From: Desulfobacterales bacterium
GTDB lineage: Bacteria; Desulfobacterota; Desulfobacteria; Desulfobacterales; Desulfosalsimonadaceae
Reading direction: 5' to 3'
Length of the DNA stretch: 64,000 bases
Assembly: GCA_034520365.1 (NCBI GenBank)
Contig: JAXHNP010000008.1
Span: forward strand, 62,001-126,000
The notes below the pieces were generated by a model. That model was not told the DNA's origin and did no database searches. It saw only the letters and a list, made by a program, of their open reading frames with translations. A program made the translations under genes and the position numbers. Below, piece by piece: positions 503 to 59,825 of this stretch (position 1 is its first letter; every line of letters starts with the position of its first letter).

Positions 503-3500
503 TTATTTTACTGCACCGGCCCATCGGCGAAGGTCGTATACAATGCGGATAAGGATGGGAAGCAGAAAAAGCAGGACAAAGCTGGCAAATAAAAGACCGA
601 ATGCTAAACTAATGGCCATTGGAATAAGAAACCGGGCCTGAAGACTGGTCTCCAGAAGCATGGGCAGAAGGGCGAGACTGGTGGTCAGCGTGGTCAAAAG
701 AATTGGGCGGAAACGCCGTCTTACCGCCTCAAAAACGGCTTCCTCGGGAAAGTCCCCCAATTCTTCCCGCCTTTTGTTGTAATAATCGATCAGCACCACG
801 GAATCATTGATCACCACACCGGTTAATGCCACGATGCCGAAAATGGAAATAAAGGAGAGGTCAAATCCTAAAAGCAGGTGTCCCAGAACCGCCCCGACCA
901 TTCCGAACGGGATGACCGCCATGATGATCGCCGGCTGGATGTAGCTGCGAAGCTGGGCACCGAGCAGCGCGAAAATCAAAAGCAGGGCAATCGCCATGTT
1001 GCGGAAAAGAGATGCCAAATCTTCCCGCCTGTCCTCGCTCTGGCCCGCCACCCGGGCGCCCAGCTCTGGATGGGCTTCCCGGAGATCCGGCGTGATTTTT
1101 TCCATGATGCCGCCGAGTGCCTCTTCCGGTGTAGTGATCCGCCTGACCACATCGGCTGTCACACTGGTGACCCGCTGCCCGTTAACCCTGATAATTTCCG
1201 CGTAGGTCTTCTGCTGCCGAATCCTCGCCACTTTTTCAAGGGCGGCCGAATCCCCGTTGGGCAGCCTCACCCGGAAATCGGAAATACTTGCAATGGACTC
1301 CCGGTCTGATTCCGGATACCTGACCATAACGCGCAGTTCCGACTGCTCGCGCTGGATGCGCTGCACCTCGTATCCGTAAAATGCGTTTCGAAGCTGAAAT
1401 CCCAGGTCCGCCGGTTTGAGTCCGGCAGCCAGGCCCACAGAGGTGAGCTCAAAAACATATTCCAGTTTGCCTGGCTTCAAACTGTCGGTTACTTCGGTAA
1501 CCCCGCTCATGGCGCGCATTCTTTTTTTCAGTTCAGCGGCCGCGGCATCAAGAACCGCCGCGTCCGTGTGGGCCAGCTCGATGTTAATATCCGGACCGCC
1601 GGATACCAGGCTGCTCTGAAAGGAGAGCTCATCGGCATTGGGTATGGCACCGATGGTCTCGCGAAGCCGGTTGGCCACTTCCTGTGCGGAAATATCGCGC
1701 CTCGGGGGATCAATCAATTGAATCTGAAGCTCCGCGCTATTGCCGCCCGCCGCGCCTCCCCCCTGGGAAGCGGGGGGCGTCTGCTGGGAAAAACGGCCTC
1801 CCACCAGAAGCGAAGTGCTTTCAAACAAACTTTTCCCCGCCTTTTCCCGAAGTTCGGCTGCCACCTGTTCCGCGGCATTCATCATTTTGGCGGCATTGTG
1901 CCGCGTGACTTCAAACGGCGTCCCTACGGGCATAATTAATGTGGCTGTCACCCGGCTCCCTTCAATCTGGGGGAAAAAAATAAAGCGGATTATCCCGACC
2001 CTCAGCATCGCCCCGATAATAATCAACAAGGCGACAAAAGCCGCCAGCACCGCATAGCGCCACCGCACGGCCACTCTCAGGACCGGCAGCAGAAGCTGGT
2101 CGACAAATTTTCTGAGCAGCTGGCTGAACCCCTTGTTGATACTTAAAACCACACCCCGGCTCCACCGGCTGGAAGAAGACAGGTGCGCCGGCAGAATCGT
2201 AAACGCCTCCAAAAGGGATATCAATAAAATGCTGATCACGAAGATGGGGATGGGCCGCATGATCTGGCCCAGAGTGCCGGTAGTAAATGCGAGCGGGGCA
2301 AAAGCGGCGACCGTCGTGAAAACACCGATGGAAACCGGGGCGCGAACTGCCTGTACGCCGGCTATAGCCGCTTTTTCATCTTCTTTGCCGGACTCCTGCT
2401 CGACAAAAATGCTCTCTCCGGTAACAATGGCATCATCGACCACAATGCCAAGCACCACGATCAGGGCAAACAAGGTGACCATATTAAAGCTCATCCCCAA
2501 CATGAAGACGCACAGCAGGCCGCCGAGAAAAGAGATGGGAATCCCCAGGCTGGTCCAGAACGCAAGCTTCAAATCCAGAAATACGAGCAGCGCGATAAAT
2601 ACCAGGGCGTAACCCAGCAGTGCATTTCGGGTGAGCAGGTTCATCCGTGATTTTAGAATTTCGGTTTGATCTTCCAGGATATCCAGGTCAATGCCGGGCG
2701 GAAGCTTTGCCGACTTCAGATAATCCTTTACCGCCCGGGCGACTTTGAGGGTATCCTGGGATTCGCTTCGTGAGACCTTGATAAAGATGGCTCGCTTGCC
2801 GTTATGGCGGGCCACCAGATTGACATCTTTGAAGCCGTCCACGATATTGGCGATGTCTTTCAGGCGGAGCAGGCTGCCGTCCGCCCGGCTTTTTATCACG
2901 ATATCTTTAAAGGCGGCCCCCATATACTTTTTTTCCTGAACCCGCAAAAGGATGTCCCCGGATTCCGATTCAACCGTCCCGGCCGGCAGATCAAGCGATG
3001 AATTTCTTATCATGCGGCCCGCCTCCGCTATGGTGAGCCCGTATTTGCGAAGGTTTTCCTCCGGGATTTCTATGGAAATTTCATAGTCCCGGTCCCCGTG
3101 AAGGGAGACCAGCGATATATTCCGGCGTCGCAGCAAATCATCCTCAATGCGCTTTGCCCAATTTTTAAGGGTCAGTTCCGGTACCTCGCCGGATAAAACG
3201 AGGGTGATGACCGAGGGCTGGGGTTTTGCCTGGGTGATCATCGGGTCTTCGGCATTCTGCGGCGGAAAGTCGGCCAGCTGATCCACTGCATTTTCCGCGT
3301 CGTTTACGACGTCATCCATGTCGGCGAAGTCTTCCACCTCAAGGGTCACCACGCCCATGTTTTCGCGGGCAATGGAGGTCACCCTGGCCACGCCTTCTAT
3401 TTCGATCAGGGCCTCTTCAACGCGGCGGGTAATGCCGTCTTCAACCTCGTGGGGCGTGGCGCCCGGATAGGGAACGGTAACATTTATTATCCGCGGATTG

Positions 3501-3655
3501 ATCGTGGGAAACAGTTCCGTGCGCATGCTGAAAATCGCCAGCAGGCCCCCGCCGATGAACAGGATCATCAATAAATTGGCAGCCACGTGATTGTCGATAA
3601 ACCATCCAATAAGGCCGCTGCCAAATATTTTGGCGCCATTGCGGTTATTTGCCAT
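503..3655 (-). CDS. RND-family efflux permease (AcrB/HAE1-like inner-membrane pump)
   Basis: This 1050-residue protein has the usual RND length and layout: a first membrane helix near residues 18-40, a large periplasmic loop, a central bundle of helices containing VVLGIVVDDAIVTGE (the proton-relay helix 4 region), a second periplasmic loop and a C-terminal bundle with VVINDSVVLIDYYN. RND pumps use proton import to extrude drugs, lipids or other hydrophobic compounds through an outer-membrane channel. The start overlaps the end of the adaptor gene by 11 bases, so the two are translationally linked. A nearly identical internal fragment of this gene (2532-2930 here) is found again at 14856-15254. 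Confidence 0.93.
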   Translation of the reverse strand: MANNRNGAKIFGSGLIGWFIDNHVAANLLMILFIGGGLLAIFSMRTELFPTINPRIINVTVPYPGATPHEVEDGITRRVEEALIEIEGVARVTSIARENMGVVTLEVEDFADMDDVVNDAENAVDQLADFPPQNAEDPMITQAKPQPSVITLVLSGEVPELTLKNWAKRIEDDLLRRRNISLVSLHGDRDYEISIEIPEENLRKYGLTIAEAGRMIRNSSLDLPAGTVESESGDILLRVQEKKYMGAAFKDIVIKSRADGSLLRLKDIANIVDGFKDVNLVARHNGKRAIFIKVSRSESQDTLKVARAVKDYLKSAKLPPGIDLDILEDQTEILKSRMNLLTRNALLGYALVFIALLVFLDLKLAFWTSLGIPISFLGGLLCVFMLGMSFNMVTLFALIVVLGIVVDDAIVTGESIFVEQESGKEDEKAAIAGVQAVRAPVSIGVFTTVAAFAPLAFTTGTLGQIMRPIPIFVISILLISLLEAFTILPAHLSSSSRWSRGVVLSINKGFSQLLRKFVDQLLLPVLRVAVRWRYAVLAAFVALLIIIGAMLRVGIIRFIFFPQIEGSRVTATLIMPVGTPFEVTRHNAAKMMNAAEQVAAELREKAGKSLFESTSLLVGGRFSQQTPPASQGGGAAGGNSAELQIQLIDPPRRDISAQEVANRLRETIGAIPNADELSFQSSLVSGGPDINIELAHTDAAVLDAAAAELKKRMRAMSGVTEVTDSLKPGKLEYVFELTSVGLAAGLKPADLGFQLRNAFYGYEVQRIQREQSELRVMVRYPESDRESIASISDFRVRLPNGDSAALEKVARIRQQKTYAEIIRVNGQRVTSVTADVVRRITTPEEALGGIMEKITPDLREAHPELGARVAGQSEDRREDLASLFRNMAIALLLIFALLGAQLRSYIQPAIIMAVIPFGMVGAVLGHLLLGFDLSFISIFGIVALTGVVINDSVVLIDYYNKRREELGDFPEEAVFEAVRRRFRPILLTTLTTSLALLPMLLETSLQARFLIPMAISLAFGLLFASFVLLFLLPILIRIVYDLRRWAGAVK

Positions 3656-10589: not shown

Positions 10590-10913
10590 TTACTTCCGCA
10601 GCATTTTATCAAAGATGGCTTCAGATTTTTCGGCCGCAAGTTCAGCCCGATCAGCCTCTGCTTCCGCGCGATCCGCTGCAGCCTCGGCCCGATTGGTGGC
10701 ATCTAAAGCCTTATCGCTTTCTTTACAACATTTCTCCGCCCGGGCTTTGGCTGCTTCGGCTTCAGCCATGGCCTGATCTGCTTTTTCCATTGCGGCATTT
10801 ACCCGCTCTTGCAGCTGATCAACCCGGCTAGTCGTGGCACACCCGTTTAAAGACAAGCCGGCAAGCGAAAACGTCTCATTCTCTAACCTCCTTATTTGTT
10901 GTTTAAAATTCAT
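10590..10913 (-). CDS. Small Ala-rich Lpp-like lipoprotein, signal peptide probably frameshifted
   Basis: The mature part reads NGCATTSRVDQLQERV, then about 75 residues of alanine-zipper coiled coil (AEAEAAKARAEKCC, RAEAAADRAEAEADRAE), ending in MLRK. This matches Lpp-type or alanine-zipper outer-membrane lipoproteins. The in-frame ATG at 10913 gives an N-terminus without a hydrophobic core and has only a weak ribosome site. A perfect AGGAGG at 10887-10892 instead sits 7 bases before an ATG at 10879 that is one base out of frame and stops after 10 codons (MRRFRLPACL). The simplest reading is a small indel or deletion in the signal-peptide region. It lies behind a predicted sigma-54 promoter. 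It may be a pseudogene or carry a sequencing error. Confidence 0.55.
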   Translation of the reverse strand: MNFKQQIRRLENETFSLAGLSLNGCATTSRVDQLQERVNAAMEKADQAMAEAEAAKARAEKCCKESDKALDATNRAEAAADRAEAEADRAELAAEKSEAIFDKMLRK

Positions 10914-10976
10914 AAGCTTTACCCAATGCAATGAATTTTGAGGAAAAAAACTCCATTAATTTATTCATTGATAAAC

Positions 10977-10992
10977 GCAAATCACATGCCAA
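10977..10992 (-). promoter_or_regulatory. Predicted sigma-54 (-24/-12) promoter of the Lpp-like gene
   Basis: Read on the minus strand, the element is TTGGCATGTGATTTGC, with GG and GC separated by exactly 10 bases. This fits the sigma-54 consensus TGGCAC-N5-TTGC closely. The predicted start of transcription is near 10965, about 50-85 bases before the lipoprotein start codons. All 16 bases are identical to the element at 17361-17376 upstream of the DegP gene. Confidence 0.7.
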
Positions 10993-11075
10993 GACTATGG
11001 CTACCGGTATGAAGGGATTGAAAAGAGGCGCCGGGTTTGAGTGGATTGAAATTTGAAAGACAAAAAACAAGCCGT

Positions 11076-11090
11076 ATTGCAATTTGCAAT
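11076..11090. promoter_or_regulatory. Palindromic activator site (second copy)
   Basis: ATTGCAA-T-TTGCAAT is a perfect 15-bp inverted repeat with a 1-base centre. It lies about 93 bases upstream of the -24 GG of the sigma-54 element at 10977-10992, the spacing expected of an enhancer site for an NtrC-type regulator. An identical palindrome occurs at 17461-17475 with nearly the same spacing. Confidence 0.65.
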
Positions 11091-11096
11091 ACCTGG

Positions 11097-12249
11097 CGTA
11101 ATGATTACAGCGCGTTCAATTGCATTGCGCAACTCCCTGAGATTGCCCGGCCAGTTATGCGCCTGAAGGGCTTCAATCGCGCTGTCAGTGAATCCGGTAA
11201 AATGTTTATGATTGTTAAGGGATAAAAATTTTAGAAAATTCTCGGCCATGGGGCAAATGTCTTCAGGCCGCTCTCTAAGGGGGGGGCATGGTAAGTGTAA
11301 TAACATTTAGCCGGTAATAGAGATCTTCACGAAACCGGCCGTCAGCTACTCTTTGGTCAAGATTCGCATTTGTCGCAGCAATAATGCGGACATCCGCTTT
11401 ACGAGGCTTAGGATCCCCCAGGCGCTCGTAAGTACGTTCCTGGATAAATCGGAGCAGTTTGACCTGCAGTTCAGGGGGGAGATCGCCGATTTCATCAAGA
11501 AAGAGCGTGCCGCCCGAACAAGCTGCGATTCGACCGGGATTATCCCGGACAGCACCGGTAAACGCGCCCTTGGTATGCCCGAACAACTCACTTTCCAATA
11601 ATTCTGCAGGCATTGCCGGGCAGGACACGGTCCCCATGGATTTTTCTGCTCGCGGACTCCACTGGTGGATCGCCTTGGCCATTACTGACTTACCGGTCCC
11701 GGACTCACCCCGGAGCAATATGATCGCCTCCGAATCAGCCGCCTTGCGGGCTGTTTCAATGGTGCGCTGCATGATGGGATTGTTGCTGCTGAAATTCGCT
11801 TCCAGGTCAAGGCGTCCCACATCATCCTTTAGTTCGGTTATTTCGCGCTCCATGTCGCGAATTTGGCTTATTTTTACCGTCTGCAGGCGCACCTGGTCCG
11901 GGGTAAAGGGCTTGGGGATATAATCTGTCGCGCCTTTTTTCATGGCTTCCACAGCCGTTTCAACAGAGGCATAAGCTGTGATGACAACGATCTTTGTCCA
12001 GGGCGGTTCCCTCTGGAGCGCCTCAATTAAATGCATCCCGTCTTCTTTACCCAGTCGCAAATCCACAAAAGCCAGATCAAAGGCACACCGCCTTGCCTCG
12101 GCCAGTGCATCGGCCTGGTTGCTGACGGCAATGGCTGTGTGGCCCTCTTGTTCAAGACAATAAATCATGGTCCGACGCATGTTGATTTCATCATCAACCA
12201 CCAGGACATTTAAGTGCCGCACATGATGGAGGCTCTCATCATCTATCAT
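11097..12249 (-). pseudogene. Decayed copy of an NtrC-family sigma-54 response regulator
   Basis: The first 324 residues (from 12249) are nearly the same as those of the intact regulator at 18102-19466: receiver domain, Walker A GESGTGKS, GAFTGA loop and Walker B. At 11279-11286 a run of eight G replaces the GCGGCGG of the intact copy, adding one base and shifting the frame just before PPLRERPEDI. The shifted frame continues with the rest of the AAA+ domain to IERAVI and then runs into unrelated sequence. The Fis-type DNA-binding domain is therefore missing. The 3' end is fused directly to the activator-site region of the lipoprotein gene, as if about 840 bp of the ancestral layout had been deleted. 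The G-run could also be a sequencing error, but the lost C-terminus could not. Confidence 0.85.
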
Positions 12250-12418
12250 GGGATTAACATACCTTTTTTCGGTTCCTCGGTTATTTCATTTAAGTGTGTA
12301 TGTAATTATAAAAAGCTGGGCCAGGATTGCAAGTTACCACAAAAATGAATGAATATTGGCATTATTAATGCATCCATTATGGAGATTTGACGATAAAAGC
12401 GACACTTTTTGGATATAA

Positions 12419-14800: not shown

Positions 14801-14855
14801 TAAATCGGATTAGTGATACCAAGTAGCCATATCTTCCGTCACGGGGATGGATACC

Positions 14856-15254
14856 GAGATGGGAATCCCTAAACTGGTCCAGAATGCAAGCTTTAAATCC
14901 AGGAACACGAGCAGTGCGATAAATACCAGGGCGTAACCCAGCAGTGCATTTCGGGTGAGCAGGTTCATCCGTGATTTTAGAATTTCGGTTTGATCTTCCA
15001 GGATATCCAGGTCAATGCCGGGCGGAAGCTTTGCCGACTTCAGATAATCCTTTACCGCCCGGGCGACTTTGAGGGTATCCTGGGATTCGCTTCGTGAGAC
15101 CTTGATAAAGATGGCTCGCTTGCCGTTATGGCGGGCCACCAGATTGACATCTTTGAAGCCGTCCACGATATTGGCGATGTCTTTCAGGCGGAGCAGGCTG
15201 CCGTCCGTCCGGCTTTTTATCACGATATCTTTAAAGGCGGCCCCCACATGCTTT
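14856..15254 (-). pseudogene. Internal fragment of an RND permease gene
   Basis: This block aligns without gaps to 2532-2930, inside the RND permease gene, at a constant offset of 12324. It encodes the end of the first periplasmic loop and the start of the central membrane bundle (GAAFKDIVIKSR to LAFWTSLGIPIS). By eye the distal 320 bases differ at about one position, while the 75 bases next to 14856 differ at eight, all transitions and all synonymous. It has no start and no partner domains. It lies just behind the PBP1A gene and marks a rearrangement or gene-conversion event. Confidence 0.88.
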
Positions 15255-15328
15255 GTCGGCGGTAAAATCCACAATGAGTTTTTGTACTCGTACCAAAAGG
15301 CGCGAAAATTTTTGTTATTGGTAAAATT

Positions 15329-15612
15329 TCACATTATGCTCTGCGCCAGATTCTGTTGCGCTGGTTTATATTCCGGAGCAATTTCTACAGCAGCTTTGTA
15401 AAAATTTTTTGCTTTGACCAATTCTCCCTGCATCTCGTGCAGCATCCCTAATAGGTCATATGCCTCCGGTTCACGGGGTTGATTTGAAATCGCTCTATGA
15501 AGGGTGGTTTTTGCGGCTGAATATCGACTATTCAGCAATTGCTGCTTGGCCAACTCGATAAGCGCCTGATAACCTGTTTTTTCCTCAATGGATAACTTTT
15601 CTATCTCCAGTA
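15329..15612 (-). pseudogene. TPR-repeat protein, 3' fragment
   Basis: About 90 residues can be read, with two or three tetratricopeptide-like helices (SRYSAAKTTLHRAISNQPREPEAYDLLGMLHEMQGELVKAKNFY is the clearest region, at about 15380-15510). No plausible ribosome site or start codon precedes it. Its 5' end is fused to the remnant of a histidine kinase gene near 15610. It is best read as the tail of a TPR protein left by a deletion. Confidence 0.6.
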
Positions 15613-15714
15613 CTCGCCGATGGCAATGATATGTCCAACCGACCACGCTATGACCAGACCCAGCAAAATAACGGCAACACCATAACCGATGAAAATTTTT
15701 TTTTGTAAAGTCAT
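15601..15714 (-). pseudogene. N-terminal remnant of a membrane sensor histidine kinase
   Basis: From the ATG at 15714 a 37-residue frame reads MTLQKKIFIGYGVAVILLG, continues through one membrane helix to IIAIGEYWR and stops. This opening (a basic tail, then F-x-G-Y-x-x-A-hydrophobic) is typical of HAMP-type sensor kinases paired with NtrC-type regulators in Desulfobacterota. The assignment comes from pattern memory. All sensor, HAMP and kinase domains are absent; the frame joins the TPR fragment instead. It may be what is left of the partner kinase of the regulator at 18102-19466. Confidence 0.5.
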
Positions 15715-15816: not shown

Positions 15817-17274
15817 TTACTTGGTTAATGTGACAACAACCAGACCCCGCCGGGGCCGATTGATAAGGAGATGAACTTTGTCGCCTTCCTCCACATTTTT
15901 AATGATCTCCTGGCAGTCAGCAACTGAGCTGACCGACTGGTGATTGATTTCAGTAATAATATCATTTTTCTGGATACCCGCTTTGTCCGCCTTGCTTCCG
16001 GCCTTGACACCGACCACAATAACACCGGCATCCTGATTAATGTTTAACTTTTCAGCCAGCTGCGGGGTAATATTTGCAATCGCAATCCCCATGTTAGCCG
16101 ACTCCTTATCTTCCTTTGCCCCTTTTCCATGAAGCGCTGCTTCATCCCGTTTTGCGATTTCAACCGAGAAAGTTTTAGTATCGCCATCCCGGTAAACTTT
16201 AATTTTTGCCTTTTCCCCGACAGAAAGGTTAGAAATCTTATTGGAAAGCTCCCGCGCGGAGTCAACTTTTTCGCCGTTAACGGCGGTAATAATATCATTG
16301 GACTCCAAGCCGGCTTTGTCTGCCGGATCTCCCTTGAATACGCGGGTAACGAGGACTCCGTGATCGACATCATAATACGCCTTCAGATCTTTGTCTAAAC
16401 TTTGAATGCCAACACCTAACCAGCCCCGGGTAACTTCCCCGCTTTCTTTAAGTTGGGCTACAATGTCCTTGGCCATGCTTGAGGGAACGGCAAAACCGAT
16501 GCCTTCACCAGCGGCCAGGATAGCGGTATTGATGCCTATAACCTCGCCCTTCATATTAAGGAGTGGCCCACCGCTGTTTCCGGGGTTAATGGAGGCATCG
16601 GTTTGAATGAAATCATCATACGGACCGGCGCCGATCACCCGGCCTTTTGCGCTGATAATGCCGCTGGTAACCGTATGTTCAAGCCCAAATGGATTGCCGA
16701 TCGCGAGCACCCATTGTCCGATTGCCATTTTGTCTGAATTTCCCAGTTCAAGCTCTGGAAGCTTTTTGTCCGAATCGATTTTAAGTAAGGCCAAGTCTGT
16801 TGGGGGATCACTGCCGATAATTTCTGCCGAATACTCTTTGCCGTTTTTTAGTTTAACCTTGATTTGATCGGCATTCTTGATGACATGATAATTGGTTACA
16901 ATATAGCCTTCTGTATCTATAATAAATCCGGAGCCCAGACTTCTTTGCTGGAACTGCTGTTGCGGCAGGTTGCCGAAAAATTTTTCAAAAAATTCTCTTA
17001 ATTGTTGCTGATTGCCCTGGGGCCCCTGAAAAAAATACTGAAAGGCCTGGCCCGGCTGACTCTCGATAGTCTTAACCGTCCGAATGTTAACCACCGCCGA
17101 ACTTGCCTTCTCCGAGAGTTTTGTAAAGCTCTGCGGGCTGATTTGCGCTGTCGATGCATTTGTCTCATTCGCCCAAAATAACGCTGGAGCGATAAGAAAT
17201 ATCGCAACAATCAATAAAGAAAAAATGATCTTTTGATAACGTTTAATTTTTTTGTTTCCTCGGATAAATCGCAT
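15817..17274 (-). CDS. degP: DegP/DegQ (HtrA)-type periplasmic serine protease-chaperone
   Basis: I start at the ATG at 17274, preceded by AAGGAG at a normal distance; the longer frame to 17331 has no ribosome site. The 485-residue product has a signal peptide (about 1-40). Its trypsin-like domain carries catalytic His in TNYHVIK (about 125), Asp in PTDLALLKI (about 160) and Ser in NPGNSGGPLL (about 233). Two PDZ domains follow at about 280-370 and 395-480. It degrades or refolds misfolded envelope proteins. A sigma-54 promoter and palindromic activator site lie upstream (17361-17376, 17461-17475), which suggests control by an NtrC-type regulator rather than by sigma-E. The regulator gene at 18102-19466 is the obvious candidate. 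Confidence 0.94.
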   Translation of the reverse strand: MRFIRGNKKIKRYQKIIFSLLIVAIFLIAPALFWANETNASTAQISPQSFTKLSEKASSAVVNIRTVKTIESQPGQAFQYFFQGPQGNQQQLREFFEKFFGNLPQQQFQQRSLGSGFIIDTEGYIVTNYHVIKNADQIKVKLKNGKEYSAEIIGSDPPTDLALLKIDSDKKLPELELGNSDKMAIGQWVLAIGNPFGLEHTVTSGIISAKGRVIGAGPYDDFIQTDASINPGNSGGPLLNMKGEVIGINTAILAAGEGIGFAVPSSMAKDIVAQLKESGEVTRGWLGVGIQSLDKDLKAYYDVDHGVLVTRVFKGDPADKAGLESNDIITAVNGEKVDSARELSNKISNLSVGEKAKIKVYRDGDTKTFSVEIAKRDEAALHGKGAKEDKESANMGIAIANITPQLAEKLNINQDAGVIVVGVKAGSKADKAGIQKNDIITEINHQSVSSVADCQEIIKNVEEGDKVHLLINRPRRGLVVVTLTK

Positions 17275-17360: not shown

Positions 17361-17376
17361 GCAAATCACATGCCAA
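17361..17376 (-). promoter_or_regulatory. Predicted sigma-54 promoter of the DegP gene
   Basis: On the minus strand the element reads TTGGCATGTGATTTGC, with GG and GC 10 bases apart. It is identical to the element at 10977-10992. The predicted transcription start is near 17349, giving a leader of about 75 bases before the DegP ATG at 17274. Confidence 0.72.
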
Positions 17377-17460
17377 GATTATGGCTGCCGGCATAAAGGG
17401 GTTCAAAAGAGATGCCGGGCTTGAGGGTATTGAAATTTGAAAGTCAAAAAAACAAGCCGT

Positions 17461-17475
17461 ATTGCAATTTGCAAT
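17461..17475. promoter_or_regulatory. Palindromic activator site between two divergent sigma-54 promoters
   Basis: ATTGCAA-T-TTGCAAT is a perfect inverted repeat. Its centre (17468) lies about 94 bases from the -24 of the DegP promoter and about 109 bases from the -24 of a plus-strand sigma-54 element at 17576-17591. These are typical distances for an NtrC-family enhancer site, and one site could serve both directions. Confidence 0.68.
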
Positions 17476-17575
17476 CCCTGGAAAATAGAAACACCTTTAC
17501 AATTAATGACCGCCACCCCTTTGATTGTATGCGACTTTAAATAATTCTGTTTGAATCTTTGGATTTATTGATTGC

Positions 17576-17591
17576 TGGCATTACCTTTGCA
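17576..17591 (+). promoter_or_regulatory. Predicted sigma-54 promoter of the pseudo-receiver gene
   Basis: TGGCATTACCTTTGCA has GG and GC separated by 10 bases and matches the sigma-54 consensus at most positions. The predicted start is near 17602, about 140 bases before the ATG at 17743. It faces away from the DegP promoter and shares the activator palindrome at 17461-17475. Confidence 0.65.
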
Positions 17592-17742: not shown

Positions 17743-18114
17743 ATGGCACACCAACGTATTTTAATAATCTGCAATGACCGCCGGGTAAATCAAAAATTGC
17801 AACAAGCATTGTCCCCCTTGAAACTGGTCATAAAAACTACCGAAACCATTGAAGACGCTTTGGGAGTCATTGAACAAGAATTCTTCGATATAGTGCTTAT
17901 GGAAATCAGCCTCATTGGCAGCGTCGATGCCTTGAAATATATCATTGAGCGAGAGCCCAGGACGAATGGCGTAATGATCACAGGACCTAATGAAATCGAA
18001 TCAGCAACCGAAGCCATGAAAAGCGGTGCCACCGATTTTATTGTAAGAGACTTCCCCGCTTGTGAAATCCGGGATCGCCTGGAGCTAATTTTAAGGCAGG
18101 ATCAGATATCGTAA
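17743..18114 (+). CDS. Stand-alone receiver-like protein with a degenerate phosphorylation site
   Basis: The 123 residues cover a single CheY-like receiver fold with no output domain. The usual phospho-acceptor Asp is Glu (E54, in DIVLMEISL), which can mimic a phosphorylated state. The conserved Lys is Arg (R102, in DFIVRDF), while the switch Thr (T80) and one acidic-pocket Asp (D12) remain. Such pseudo-receivers usually act through protein contacts rather than phosphotransfer. The ATG has GGAGAGG about ten bases upstream. The gene lies behind a predicted sigma-54 promoter that diverges from the DegP promoter. Its 3' end overlaps the convergent regulator gene by 13 bases. Confidence 0.8.
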   Translation: MAHQRILIICNDRRVNQKLQQALSPLKLVIKTTETIEDALGVIEQEFFDIVLMEISLIGSVDALKYIIEREPRTNGVMITGPNEIESATEAMKSGATDFIVRDFPACEIRDRLELILRQDQIS

Positions 18115-19466
18115 GCTTTGCGCCGCCGCCATAGTGTTGCCGGATCAATGTCAAGGATGTCAGCTGCTTCCTGGAGCGAATGGGTCATGGCAATAATACG
18201 GCGGATATGAAATTCTTCAATCTTTGACAAAGGAACCGGATCGCCAATGCAGGGCTCAGGGTCTCGCTGATTTAAATGTTCCGGTAGTTCACTCGCATCA
18301 ATCGTTTCCTTGTGCCCTAAGATTACAGCACGTTCAATCGCATTGCGCAGCTCCCTGAGATTGCCCGGCCAGTCATGCGCCTGAAGGGCTTCAATCGCGC
18401 TGTCCGTAAATCCGGAAAACTGTTTGTGATTGTTAAGGGATAAAAATTTTAGAAAATTCTCGGCCATGGGGCGAATGTCTTCAGGCCGCTCCCTAAGCGG
18501 CGGCACGGTAATTGTGATAACGTTTAACCGGTAATAGAGATCCTCCCGAAACCGGCCGTCAGCTACTCGTTGATCGAGGTCCACATTGGTCGCAGCAATA
18601 ATGCGGACATCCGCTTTGCGAGGCTTAGGATCCCCCAGGCGCTCGTAAGTACGTTCCTGGATAAATCGGAGCAGTTTGACCTGCAGTTCAGGGGGGAGAT
18701 CACCGATTTCATCAAGAAAGAGCGTGCCGCCCGAACAAGCTGCGATTCGACCGGGATTATCCCGGACAGCACCGGTAAACGCGCCCTTCACATGGCCAAA
18801 CAATTCGCTTTCCAATAATTCTGAAGGCATTGCCGGGCAGGATACGGTCCCCATGGATTTTTCAGCCCGCGGGCTCCATTGGTGGATCGCCTTGGCCATT
18901 ACTGACTTGCCGGTGCCGGACTCGCCCCGGATCAAGATGATCGCCTCGGAATCAGCCGCTTTGCGAGCTGTTTCAATGGTGCGCTGCATGATGGGATTGT
19001 TGCTGCTGAAACTGGCTTCCGGGTCAAGGCGTCCCACATCATCCTTTAGTTCGGTTAGTTCGCGCTCCATGGCACGAATCTGGCCGATTTTTGCCGTCTG
19101 CAGGCGCACCTGGTCCGGGGTAAAGGGCTTGGGGATATAATCTGTCACGCCCTTTTTCATGGCTTCCACAGCCGTTTCAACAGAAGCATAAGCTGTGATG
19201 ACCACGATCTTTGTCCATGGCGATTCTCTTTGGAGCGTCTCAATCAATTCCATGCCGTTTTCTTTGCCTAGCCGCAAATCCACAAAAGTCAGGTCAAAGG
19301 CACACCGCCTTGCCTCGGCCAGCGCATCATCCTGATTGCCCACCGCGATGGCGGTATGGCCCTCCTCTTCAAGGCAGTAAATCATAGTTCGCCGCATGTT
19401 GATTTCATCATCCACCACCAGGACATTTAAGTGCCGTATGTAATTGAGGCTTTCATCATCTGTCAT
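18102..19466 (-). CDS. NtrC-family sigma-54-dependent response regulator
   Basis: The 454 residues have all expected parts. The receiver domain has the acidic pair D19/D20, phospho-acceptor D63 (FVDLRLG), T91 and K113. The AAA+ domain has Walker A GESGTGKS (181-188), the sigma-54 contact loop GAFTGA (228-233) and Walker B GGTLFLDEIGDL (246-257). A Fis-type helix-turn-helix lies at about 430-454 (LQEAADILDIDPATLWRRR). It should activate sigma-54 promoters from distant palindromic sites, and such sites lie nearby at 17461 and 11076. No intact kinase gene is next to it; only a 37-residue kinase remnant lies at 15601-15714. A decayed duplicate is at 11097-12249. Confidence 0.95.
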   Translation of the reverse strand: MTDDESLNYIRHLNVLVVDDEINMRRTMIYCLEEEGHTAIAVGNQDDALAEARRCAFDLTFVDLRLGKENGMELIETLQRESPWTKIVVITAYASVETAVEAMKKGVTDYIPKPFTPDQVRLQTAKIGQIRAMERELTELKDDVGRLDPEASFSSNNPIMQRTIETARKAADSEAIILIRGESGTGKSVMAKAIHQWSPRAEKSMGTVSCPAMPSELLESELFGHVKGAFTGAVRDNPGRIAACSGGTLFLDEIGDLPPELQVKLLRFIQERTYERLGDPKPRKADVRIIAATNVDLDQRVADGRFREDLYYRLNVITITVPPLRERPEDIRPMAENFLKFLSLNNHKQFSGFTDSAIEALQAHDWPGNLRELRNAIERAVILGHKETIDASELPEHLNQRDPEPCIGDPVPLSKIEEFHIRRIIAMTHSLQEAADILDIDPATLWRRRKAYDI

Positions 19467-19669
19467 AAAATTAAAATCCCTTACTTGGCGGCATGAAAAG
19501 ACAGGCCATCAGAAAAAATGGTCATACCTTTAGGTATTTTTATTACCGGCTGGGCTATGATTTTAAAAGAATTTCTTGTTCACTTGCTTTCTCTGAGATT
19601 TTTGGTCGGTTTTTCCTGTCATTGAGGGCGCTTTACAATTGCTGTTCGGCATTGCTGATTTTTGTCAGG

Positions 19670-20021: not shown

Positions 20022-20501
20022 TTAATTATCAGGCAGTAGAGAATAACTATTAATTGGTTTAAAAAATTTTACACTTCCCCCTGATTCGATAGAATTTTTT
20101 TTAAACCATCCTTGGTTGGCTTCAACGGCGTATTTGACCTTCTGAGAAGAGGCAATTATTTCAAGGCTGTGCGGTTTCATTTGCCTTATGCCGGTAATAT
20201 AGCCATCCGCATCAATAAAAGCGATGCTGAGGGCTATATTTGTGTTTTTCATCCAAAACTTGCGATGTGATGACTTGTCATAAACAAATATCATGCCTTT
20301 ATCATAGTCGAGATGATCGCGATACATAAGCCCCCGGCTGCGTTTATAGTAAGTATCTGCCACCTCACATATCAGCGAGATATTTTTTCCCTCTACATTT
20401 GTGAAGACTACCTTCCATTTTTCAAGATTCTGACTGGAGACATCTGAAACGGAAATTACGAGCAGGGAAAACAGCAATAAGGTAACATTTCTAAATTTCA
20501 A
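20022..20501 (-). CDS. DUF192-family secreted protein, TTG start
   Basis: Translation from a TTG at 20501 gives 159 residues with a signal-like hydrophobic segment (VTLLLFSLLVISVSDVSS). The DUF192 core follows: RSRGLMYRDHLDYDKGMIFVYD, FWMKNTNIALSIAFID and VKYAVEANQGWF. The function of DUF192 proteins is unknown; many are exported. No ATG is available, because the frame upstream runs straight into the tRNA-Ser gene whose 3' end is only eight bases away. The start is therefore uncertain and expression may depend on processing of a shared tRNA transcript. Confidence 0.75.
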   Translation of the reverse strand: MKFRNVTLLLFSLLVISVSDVSSQNLEKWKVVFTNVEGKNISLICEVADTYYKRSRGLMYRDHLDYDKGMIFVYDKSSHRKFWMKNTNIALSIAFIDADGYITGIRQMKPHSLEIIASSQKVKYAVEANQGWFKKNSIESGGSVKFFKPINSYSLLPDN

Positions 20502-20508
20502 AAGTATA

Positions 20509-20599
<91 letters not shown>

Positions 20600-20690
20600 G
20601 AATTTGATTTGACTTGCAGGAAAGAAATTTTATTGAATGCAGAAAATTATATGTTCTGCAGGTTTGTGTCAAATGAAAATTGCTGCGGCC

Positions 20691-20837
20691 CACGGCTAAT
20701 CTGTTATAACCGCGAAGCCCATAACCACGGTCATGTTAGCGGACAGATAGTCGCCACGGTGGCCGACTCTACGATGCATGTCGCCGTAAGGCAGGCCACC
20801 GTGCCTGCCTAAAAAAAGACAGAACAAATTTACCGTG
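20691..20837. repeat. Dispersed 147-bp element with terminal inverted repeats (copy 1)
   Basis: The ends read CACGGCTAATCTGTT and, inverted, CACGGTAAATTTGTT. Inside are the palindromic pieces CGCCACGGTGGCCGACT and GGCAGGCCACCGTGCCTGCC. Near-copies are at 27205-27349, 43300-43446 (opposite orientation) and 59554-59711, with shorter relatives at 39947-40044 and 59725-59825. It encodes nothing obvious and looks like a non-autonomous mobile (MITE-like) element. Confidence 0.8.
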
Positions 20838-20895
20838 TGCTGCGGCCGGATATAAGGCGCGGCGGGTGCGCCGGGAATGACTGTTGAAATTTTTG

Positions 20896-27204: not shown

Positions 27205-27349
27205 ACGGCTAATTTGCTCTAACCGCAAAGCCCATAACCACGGTCCTGTTAACGGACAGATAGTCGGCACGGTGGCCGACTCTACGACGCATGTGGCCGT
27301 AGGGCAGGCCACCGTGCCTGCCTAAAAAAGACGGAACAAATTTACCGTG
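27205..27349. repeat. Dispersed 147-bp element with terminal inverted repeats (copy 2)
   Basis: It is in the same orientation as the copy at 20691-20837 and very similar to it, including CCCATAACCACGGTC and GGCCACCGTGCCTGCC. It ends 24 bases before the start codon of the HEXXH protein gene, so it may contain or have replaced that gene's promoter. Confidence 0.8.
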
Positions 27350-27372
27350 TACAAACCTGATCGTGCGAATGT

Positions 27373-39946: not shown

Positions 39947-40044
39947 TAAATTTGTTCTGTTTTTGCGGCAGGCACGGTGGCCTGCCCTACGCAAGGGGAA
40001 AACCAGCCCGTCGTAGGGTCGGCCACCGCGCCGACCGTTCGGGC
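39947..40044. repeat. Shorter relative of the 147-bp dispersed element
   Basis: TAAATTTGTTCTG, then GGCAGGCACGGTGGCCTGCC and GTCGGCCACCGCGCCGACCGTTCGGGC. It keeps the left end and core of the long element but ends in CCGTTCGGGC, like 59725-59825. It lies in the 265-bp space between the CYTH gene and rplM. Confidence 0.7.
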
Positions 40045-43299: not shown

Positions 43300-43446
43300 C
43301 ACGGTAAATTTGTTCTGTCTTTTTTTAGGCAGGCACGGTGGCCTGCCCTACGGCGGCATGCGTCGTAGAGTCGGCCACCGTGCCGACTATCTGTCCGTTA
43401 ACGGGACCGTGGTTATGGGCTTTGCGGTTAGAACAAATTAGCCGTG
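43300..43446. repeat. Dispersed 147-bp element with terminal inverted repeats (copy 3, inverted)
   Basis: CACGGTAAATTTGTTCT at the left end and AGAACAAATTAGCCGTG at the right end form the terminal inverted repeats. Inside are GGCAGGCACGGTGGCCTGCC and GTCGGCCACCGTGCCGAC. It occupies the middle of the 405-bp gap before the ABC permease operon, where a binding-protein gene would normally be expected. Confidence 0.82.
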
Positions 43447-59553: not shown

Positions 59554-59711
59554 CACGGTAAATTTGTTCTATCTATTTTTCAGGCGGGCACGGTGGCCCG
59601 CCCTACGCGACAATGCCGACATTTTGTAGTCATAGGGTCGGCCACCGTGCCGACCTTACATGCGAACAACCCCATGGTTATGGGGTCGTTCGCCAGAACA
59701 AATTCACCGTG
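59554..59711. repeat. Dispersed element with terminal inverted repeats (copy 4)
   Basis: It starts CACGGTAAATTTGTTCT and ends AGAACAAATTCACCGTG. The core is GGCGGGCACGGTGGCCCGCC and GTCGGCCACCGTGCCGAC, and the element is about 10 bp longer than the other copies. Together with the next element it fills most of the 472-bp space between znuA and the broken ferredoxin-like gene. Confidence 0.8.
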
Positions 59712-59724
59712 TAATTTAGTTTGG

Positions 59725-59825
59725 GCTAAATTTGTTCTGTTTTTCAGGCAGGCGCGGAGGGCTTGCCCTACGCAAGGGGAAAACCCGCCCGTCGCAGGGT
59801 CGGCCACCGCGCCGACCGTTCGGGC
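59725..59825. repeat. Shorter relative of the dispersed element
   Basis: GCTAAATTTGTTCTGTTTTTCAGG leads into GGCGCGGAGGGCTTGCC and GTCGGCCACCGCGCCGACCGTTCGGGC. It is closest to 39947-40044. It ends 68 bases before the GTG start of the broken ferredoxin-like gene. Confidence 0.7.

Follow-up and report, generated by a model that had tools for sequence, protein, structure and literature searches.

The 17.36-17.59 kb region of the 64,000-nucleotide stretch analysed here (the window, C8:62001-126000, from a 4.33-Mb assembly of eight contigs) is probably the sigma-54 enhancer-promoter unit of an NtrC-type two-component system, which appears to have been captured by a DegP gene and multiplied by local duplication. 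A DegP-facing sigma-54 promoter is preceded, 99 bp upstream, by a perfect palindrome that has a weaker site 32 bp from it, the order of related regulator gene, unit and histidine kinase gene is kept in many relatives, and the unit is present three times in this genome. We consider the finding real, and the predicted role of the adjacent regulator is well supported by comparison.

Direct reading of the sequence gives TTGGCATGTGATTTGCC on the minus strand at 17376-17360, facing the DegP gene with a predicted start at about 17349, and CTGGCATTACCTTTGCA on the plus strand at 17575-17591, facing a stand-alone receiver gene with a predicted start at about 17602. Both elements have the exact GG-N10-GC spacing and fit the sigma-54 -24/-12 consensus TGGCAYR-N4-TTGCW, with C replacing the last W in the minus element and T replacing R in the plus element. 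Between them, at 17461-17475, lies ATTGCAATTTGCAAT, a perfect 7-1-7 palindrome (ATTGCAA-T-TTGCAAT) and putative activator site. An earlier note on this DNA had described the two elements and the 15-bp palindrome between them correctly. It put the palindrome about 94 and 109 bp from the elements; counted between the first base of the inner 13-mer and the T of TGG, the separation is 99 bp on the DegP side, as in relatives, and 114 bp on the receiver side. It overlooked a second, imperfect putative activator site, CTTTCAAATTTCAAT, on the minus strand at 17429-17443, the centre of which lies about 32 bp promoter-ward of the palindrome's. The genome also encodes sigma-54 itself (rpoN; PF04552, E 1.5e-62).

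In the window, TTGCANNNTGCAA occurs twice against an expectation of 0.08, and the strict pattern TGGCAY-N5-TTGCA is found eight times in 4.33 Mb, compared with once for the reversed control. The genome-wide search for the palindrome, suggested in the earlier note, returned three places: allowing one mismatch, ATTGCAANTTGCAAT was found only at C8:61273, 73076 (window 11076) and 79461 (window 17461), exact in each case. Each palindrome is accompanied by one of exactly three genomic copies of TGGCATGTGATTTGC, at 98, 98 and 99 bp. The composite palindrome-N76-106-TGGYAYN5TTGC gave five matches, all at these three C8 loci and none elsewhere in the 4.33-Mb genome, against approximately 0.0009 expected from the densities of the parts and 0 found in 10 Mb of simulated sequence. 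Because the three places are mutual duplicates, they count as one independent event.

The earlier note saw a single unit (locus 3) and missed the copies at C8:61124-61422, outside the window (locus 1), and at window 10976-11096 (locus 2). Self-comparison of 76 kb of C8 shows a segmental duplication in which the DegP copies (C8:58685-60383 and 77613-79311) are 97% identical, the promoter regions, both promoters included (C8:61124-61422 and 79312-79610), are 90% identical, and the regulator gene copies (window 11099-12265 and 18318-19482) are 90% identical at the DNA level. Three similar loci within 21 kb could suggest an assembly artefact, but the copies differ by 3% in DegP, by about 10% in promoter and regulator, and in their flanking genes, which mis-assembly of one copy would not be expected to produce, and an artefact is highly improbable.

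At locus 1 the promoter is followed by a gene for an exported-looking protein (its Pfam matches, including an OB-fold domain, are all below cut-off), by DegP and by an intact HAMP-PAS-HisKA-HATPase kinase gene (C8:56945-58786), and the plus-strand promoter faces an EamA transporter. Locus 2 occupies window 10.6-12.3 kb, where all features except the symmetric palindrome are on the minus strand. Here the broken regulator copy (11099-12265, about 90% DNA identity), which lacks its DNA-binding end, is joined to a promoter copy carrying the second exact palindrome (11076-11090), an imperfect activator site copy (11045-11059) and a DegP-type sigma-54 promoter copy (10976-10992). The last faces a gene for an alanine-zipper, OprI-like lipoprotein (10590-10913; PF11839, 29.2 bits, cut-off 23.1) of uncertain start; the first 28 codons of this open reading frame are similar to the beginning of the OB-fold-like gene at locus 1, and its start may be damaged.

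Along the minus strand of locus 3 come the regulator, the sites, the sigma-54 promoter, DegP, a kinase remnant and a TPR remnant. The DegP/HtrA Do-type protease (15817-17274, probable ATG start at 17274) has a trypsin and two PDZ domains and scores 486.6 bits with TIGR02037 (cut-off 416.2), and with its locus-1 counterpart it makes two DegP genes, not one, behind such sites. The kinase remnant (15619-15714) consists of 96 bases identical to the beginning of the locus-1 kinase gene, with a stop soon after, and the TPR remnant (15338-15613) resembles the TPR half of a receiver-TPR protein of relatives (40-46% identity). At window 15616 (C8:77616) approximately codon 33 of the kinase is joined to receiver-TPR residue 117 onward, a junction left by deletion of the remaining kinase sequence together with the receiver portion. 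The order of the whole suggests that DegP was inserted before the kinase.

The broken regulator copy, the truncated kinase, the TPR remnant, the uncertain lipoprotein start and an RND efflux pump fragment would also suit decaying recombination debris with little remaining function. Against this, one regulator gene, one kinase gene and both DegP genes are intact, the promoter hexamers are unchanged, and dN/dS values between copies of 0.19 for DegP and 0.11 for the regulator (codons 1-315) indicate that selection mostly acted on the genes during their divergence; mere debris is therefore unlikely. Purifying selection on the promoter elements themselves is only suggested, as 3 of 64 columns within elements and 26 of 236 elsewhere changed between the locus-1 and locus-3 copies (p = 0.09).

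The RND fragment (window 14810-15274) is about 97% identical to part of an intact pump gene at 503-3655 and is a further sign of local duplication. The window also contains dispersed repeats of about 147 bp, perhaps MITE- or REP-like, that are 92-96% alike (20691-20838, 27205-27350 and, inverted, 43300-43446) and have shorter relatives at 39947-40044, 59554-59616 and 59727-59825. A tRNA-Ser(CGA) lies on the minus strand at 20509-20599, overlapped by the listed open reading frame 20022-20693.

The proposed activator is encoded beside the unit on the minus strand (18102-19466) and has the three domains of an NtrC-type response regulator, namely a receiver, an AAA+ domain with GAFTGA and a Fis-type helix-turn-helix (HTH_8, 22.2 bits, cut-off 22). 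Its relatives are scattered, being found at E <=1e-125 in 37 of 389 genomes of the class, more than once in two of them (G093 and G152), and in none of the three other genomes of the genus. The public genome collection yielded five loci with one good full-length relative, which is also the best public match (L026, a Thermodesulfobacteriota MAG, 60%). From the class, family and public searches we compared 30 loci at 55% identity or more (the closer loci) and 11 at 43-47%, the latter a subset of numerous such activators. Sites were counted at the 28 closer loci with at least 200 bp downstream, two (L064, L119) being dropped at contig ends, using a motif originally derived from the window plus L026, L062 and L063, three relatives that are themselves among those counted.

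An exact TTGCA-N3-TGCAA lies within 250 bp behind the regulator gene at 16 of the 28 loci, and one with no more than one mismatch at 22; in random 250-bp stretches from the 16 exact loci the palindrome appeared in 9 of 3,036 draws. The exact form is absent there from 12 relatives, and five (L102, L108, L114, L115, L117) have no site with fewer than three mismatches; L114, L115 and L117 instead have exact palindromes upstream of a kinase gene located 5 kb off, at a distance of about 210-290 bp from it. A sigma-54 element (up to two mismatches) follows the site at 97-100 bp in 18 of 28, usually before a histidine kinase gene, and exact palindrome and promoter coincide in 13 of 28, at 97-99 bp. 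In the more distant group 6 of 11 loci have the exact palindrome. This is the arrangement of an NtrC-type enhancer, with a palindrome about 100 bp or more upstream of its promoter and conserved with the regulator.

An alignment of 21 promoter regions (our three copies and 18 others) begins with GCCTTGCAnnnTGCAAGGC, continues with a second site conserved in most rows as CTTTCAnnTTTCAA, its centre about 32 bp on, and ends with the promoter; our copies lack the outer GCC/GGC of the first site and keep the remainder. A kinase gene lies downstream on the same strand within 7 kb at 26 of the 30 closer loci, and within 500 bp at 19, while a receiver-TPR protein gene is present at 9 of 30. By this alignment of sites and promoter, the minus-strand DegP promoter is homologous to the kinase promoter of relatives, which indicates that it is derived from the regulator-kinase system's own autoregulatory promoter.

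The presence of the palindrome was rejected as proof of the regulator, as the composite is also found in 42 of 352 class genomes that have no regulator relative at E 1e-125. The palindrome might accordingly serve a different NtrC-type activator encoded in this genome in place of the adjacent one. A second family near receiver-Lon proteases or CitMHS-type transporters, like DVU3305, seems to recognise almost the same sequence; some of the 42 composites lie by receiver-Lon genes (for example in L178), and in Desulfovibrio vulgaris an overlap is reported between the putative sites of DVU3305 and those of the potassium regulator DVU3334 (PMC3333781, in the part consulted). However, the base after TGCAA is C in 32 of the 42 (counted from lists), mostly G in regulator-linked sites, and T here. 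This genome's best match to one such candidate (L185) reaches only 45%, no further composite exists in the genome, and the palindrome keeps its place behind the regulator gene, so that we regard another activator as improbable. The product of 18102-19466 is very probably the activator of the palindrome-linked promoter.

Five of the genomes without a regulator relative were opened among the matches listed (L176, L177, L178, L183, L185); TGCAAC sites lie beside other genes in four, and L183, at the end of its contig, is of the kinase - receiver-TPR - TrkA kind. This second composite class, TTGCA-N3-TGCAAC with a sigma-54 promoter, occurs beside genes for receiver-Lon, CitMHS or another NtrC-type regulator (L178, L177, L185 and others). 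Two other genomes of the genus carry the palindrome with a sigma-54 element before a Nitro_FeMo-Co domain gene or similar, an orp-like arrangement (L065 4631-4778; L176 5967-6072).

The earlier note had the adjacent regulator controlling both genes. For DegP this is strengthened by the conservation of palindrome and promoter behind related regulator genes and by the presence of rpoN; for the receiver side it is weakened, as no fetched relative has an equivalent of the divergent plus-strand promoter, yet both hexamers are intact in the locus-1 copy. It is possible, if the less probable case, that only the DegP-facing promoter is active and that the receiver-facing element is a chance or relic match. 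Besides the missing counterpart, the degenerate receiver and the 114-bp distance would fit this, the latter being unseen in the closer relatives (97-100 bp, and 120 bp in two from one-mismatch sites), while spacings of 110-112 bp occur in several of the 43-47% group. On the other side, the element is one of the eight strict TGGCAY-N5-TTGCA sites in 4.33 Mb, and its hexamers survive at locus 1 though the copies differ by about 10%.

The receiver gene itself (17743-18114, plus strand) encodes, as the earlier note had it, a pseudo-receiver. Set against the receiver-TPR proteins found in relatives, the protein has CND for the DDE motif, Glu for the acceptor Asp and Arg for the Lys, lacks two residues after the Glu and keeps the Thr; the acidic pair, acceptor Asp and Lys of a canonical CheY-type receiver are thus lost. 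Its best family matches are the receiver halves of two receiver-TPR proteins (31-32%, E ~1e-14), with other receivers close behind at 33-35%, and it likely descends from a receiver-TPR protein.

In relatives the system often travels with potassium uptake genes. Of the 30 closer loci, 8, L063 among them, encode a TrkA that shares 60% identity or more with the L063 protein, and 12 encode an ATPase sharing 60% or more with the KdpB-like one of L179; the KdpB name rests on an E1-E2 ATPase and its neighbours, with Pfam KdpC and KdpD found in L179. Together, Trk or Kdp genes adjoin 20 of these 30 loci, compared with 2 of the 11 more distant ones, and none were found in the 76 kb of C8 around our three loci. 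L179 (1371-9725) carries an extra enhancer-promoter copy between its KdpB-KdpC-KdpD-like genes and its kinase - receiver-TPR - TrkA genes.

Conversely, DegP, the locus-1 exported protein and the lipoprotein are found at none of the 30 closer loci. A DegP relative beside the regulator-kinase system elsewhere was sought without a match in the 41 fetched loci or the 30 closer ones, and no DegP at E 1e-188 or better occurs in the 388 other class genomes. The genus holds a separate DegP (here C3:128337, 61% identical) and a more distant one (38-39%), and the seven other DegP loci in the genus have no palindrome and no strict sigma-54 match, with one relaxed match in L169. The envelope-stress module of the earlier note was an inference from gene content, and in relatives the system accompanies potassium uptake genes (20/30) or other cargo; with potassium cargo there and DegP at none of the 30, such a module is plausible here as a lineage-specific rewiring of a potassium-linked system. 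The earlier note set it apart from the sigma-E and Cpx schemes; sigma-54 stress systems outside both are already known, two regulators listed under envelope stress in D. vulgaris being an example (PMC4641369, in part).

A working scheme can be proposed from these arrangements. The intact HAMP-PAS kinase of locus 1, about 21 kb away, would phosphorylate the regulator, which would occupy both the palindrome and the second site in the form of cooperating dimers, assemble its AAA+ ring and, by looping, open sigma-54 polymerase at the DegP promoter and at the other copies; the same symmetric site probably serves the receiver promoter as well. DegP was probably inserted downstream of the autoregulatory promoter, ahead of the kinase gene that this promoter had served, and local duplication then copied the unit to the front of an operon of the weakly OB-fold-like exported protein, DegP and kinase (locus 1) and to the front of the lipoprotein-like gene (locus 2). 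The weakest step is that the degenerate receiver, with Glu for Asp and without the usual phosphorylation, may act in feedback as a constitutive partner or competitor.

More tentatively, and with less than even probability, a potassium two-component system might have been rewired through copying of its autoregulatory unit into a periplasmic quality-control regulon (two DegP, the exported protein, the lipoprotein and its own kinase) in which the one symmetric enhancer would drive, as built-in feedback, a phospho-mimetic pseudo-receiver descended from the system's receiver-TPR protein as well. The locus offers a specific, testable case of a degP gene with predicted sigma-54 control, and the relatives allow the regulon of a potassium-linked regulator-kinase pair, present in many genera, to be defined by two sites and a spacing of 97-100 bp to the promoter. 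Promoter capture via local duplication, with three copies of differing divergence, would be a route of regulon rewiring.

Sigma-54 control of envelope-related genes is known from ZraSR and PspF of Escherichia coli. The adjacent regulator presumably resembles AlgB of the AlgB-KinB system of Pseudomonas aeruginosa. AlgB is likewise an NtrC-type regulator with receiver and GAFTGA that is paired with a histidine kinase, whereas AlgB-KinB controls alginate and biofilm; the likeness is one of description, not sequence, no AlgB binding site was found in the passages on AlgB (PMC6932827), and an AlgB model is absent from the 25 NCBIfam matches listed. In D. vulgaris, the sigma-54 regulators DVU1419 and DVU3381 are listed under envelope stress and similarly control envelope-related genes, but no DegP target was found for them in the part of the source consulted (PMC4641369), the main text of which contains neither 'htrA' nor 'protease'. 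Text searches found no published degP under sigma-54 control among the matches listed; the main texts of PMC12316311 and PMC3162934 contain neither DegP nor HtrA, and PMC3118216 has degP only in a promoter list and a reference.

DVU3334 of D. vulgaris is a potassium-responsive sigma-54 response regulator of its own kdp operon (PMC3333781, as far as consulted). It controls its own operon together with potassium uptake genes, and relatives of our regulator lie beside Kdp or Trk genes at 20 of 30 loci; the reported DVU3334 operon contains no DegP or lipoprotein; again the two are likened by description, not by sequence. The overlap of its putative sites with those of DVU3305 fits both the potassium link and the TGCAAC class of composites. 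The divergent orp operons of D. vulgaris (PMC3897727, in the part consulted) differ in their genes, in having two activator sites at different distances and in needing IHF, but they have the same overall design of two divergent sigma-54 promoters in one intergenic region, served by one regulator via palindromic sites.
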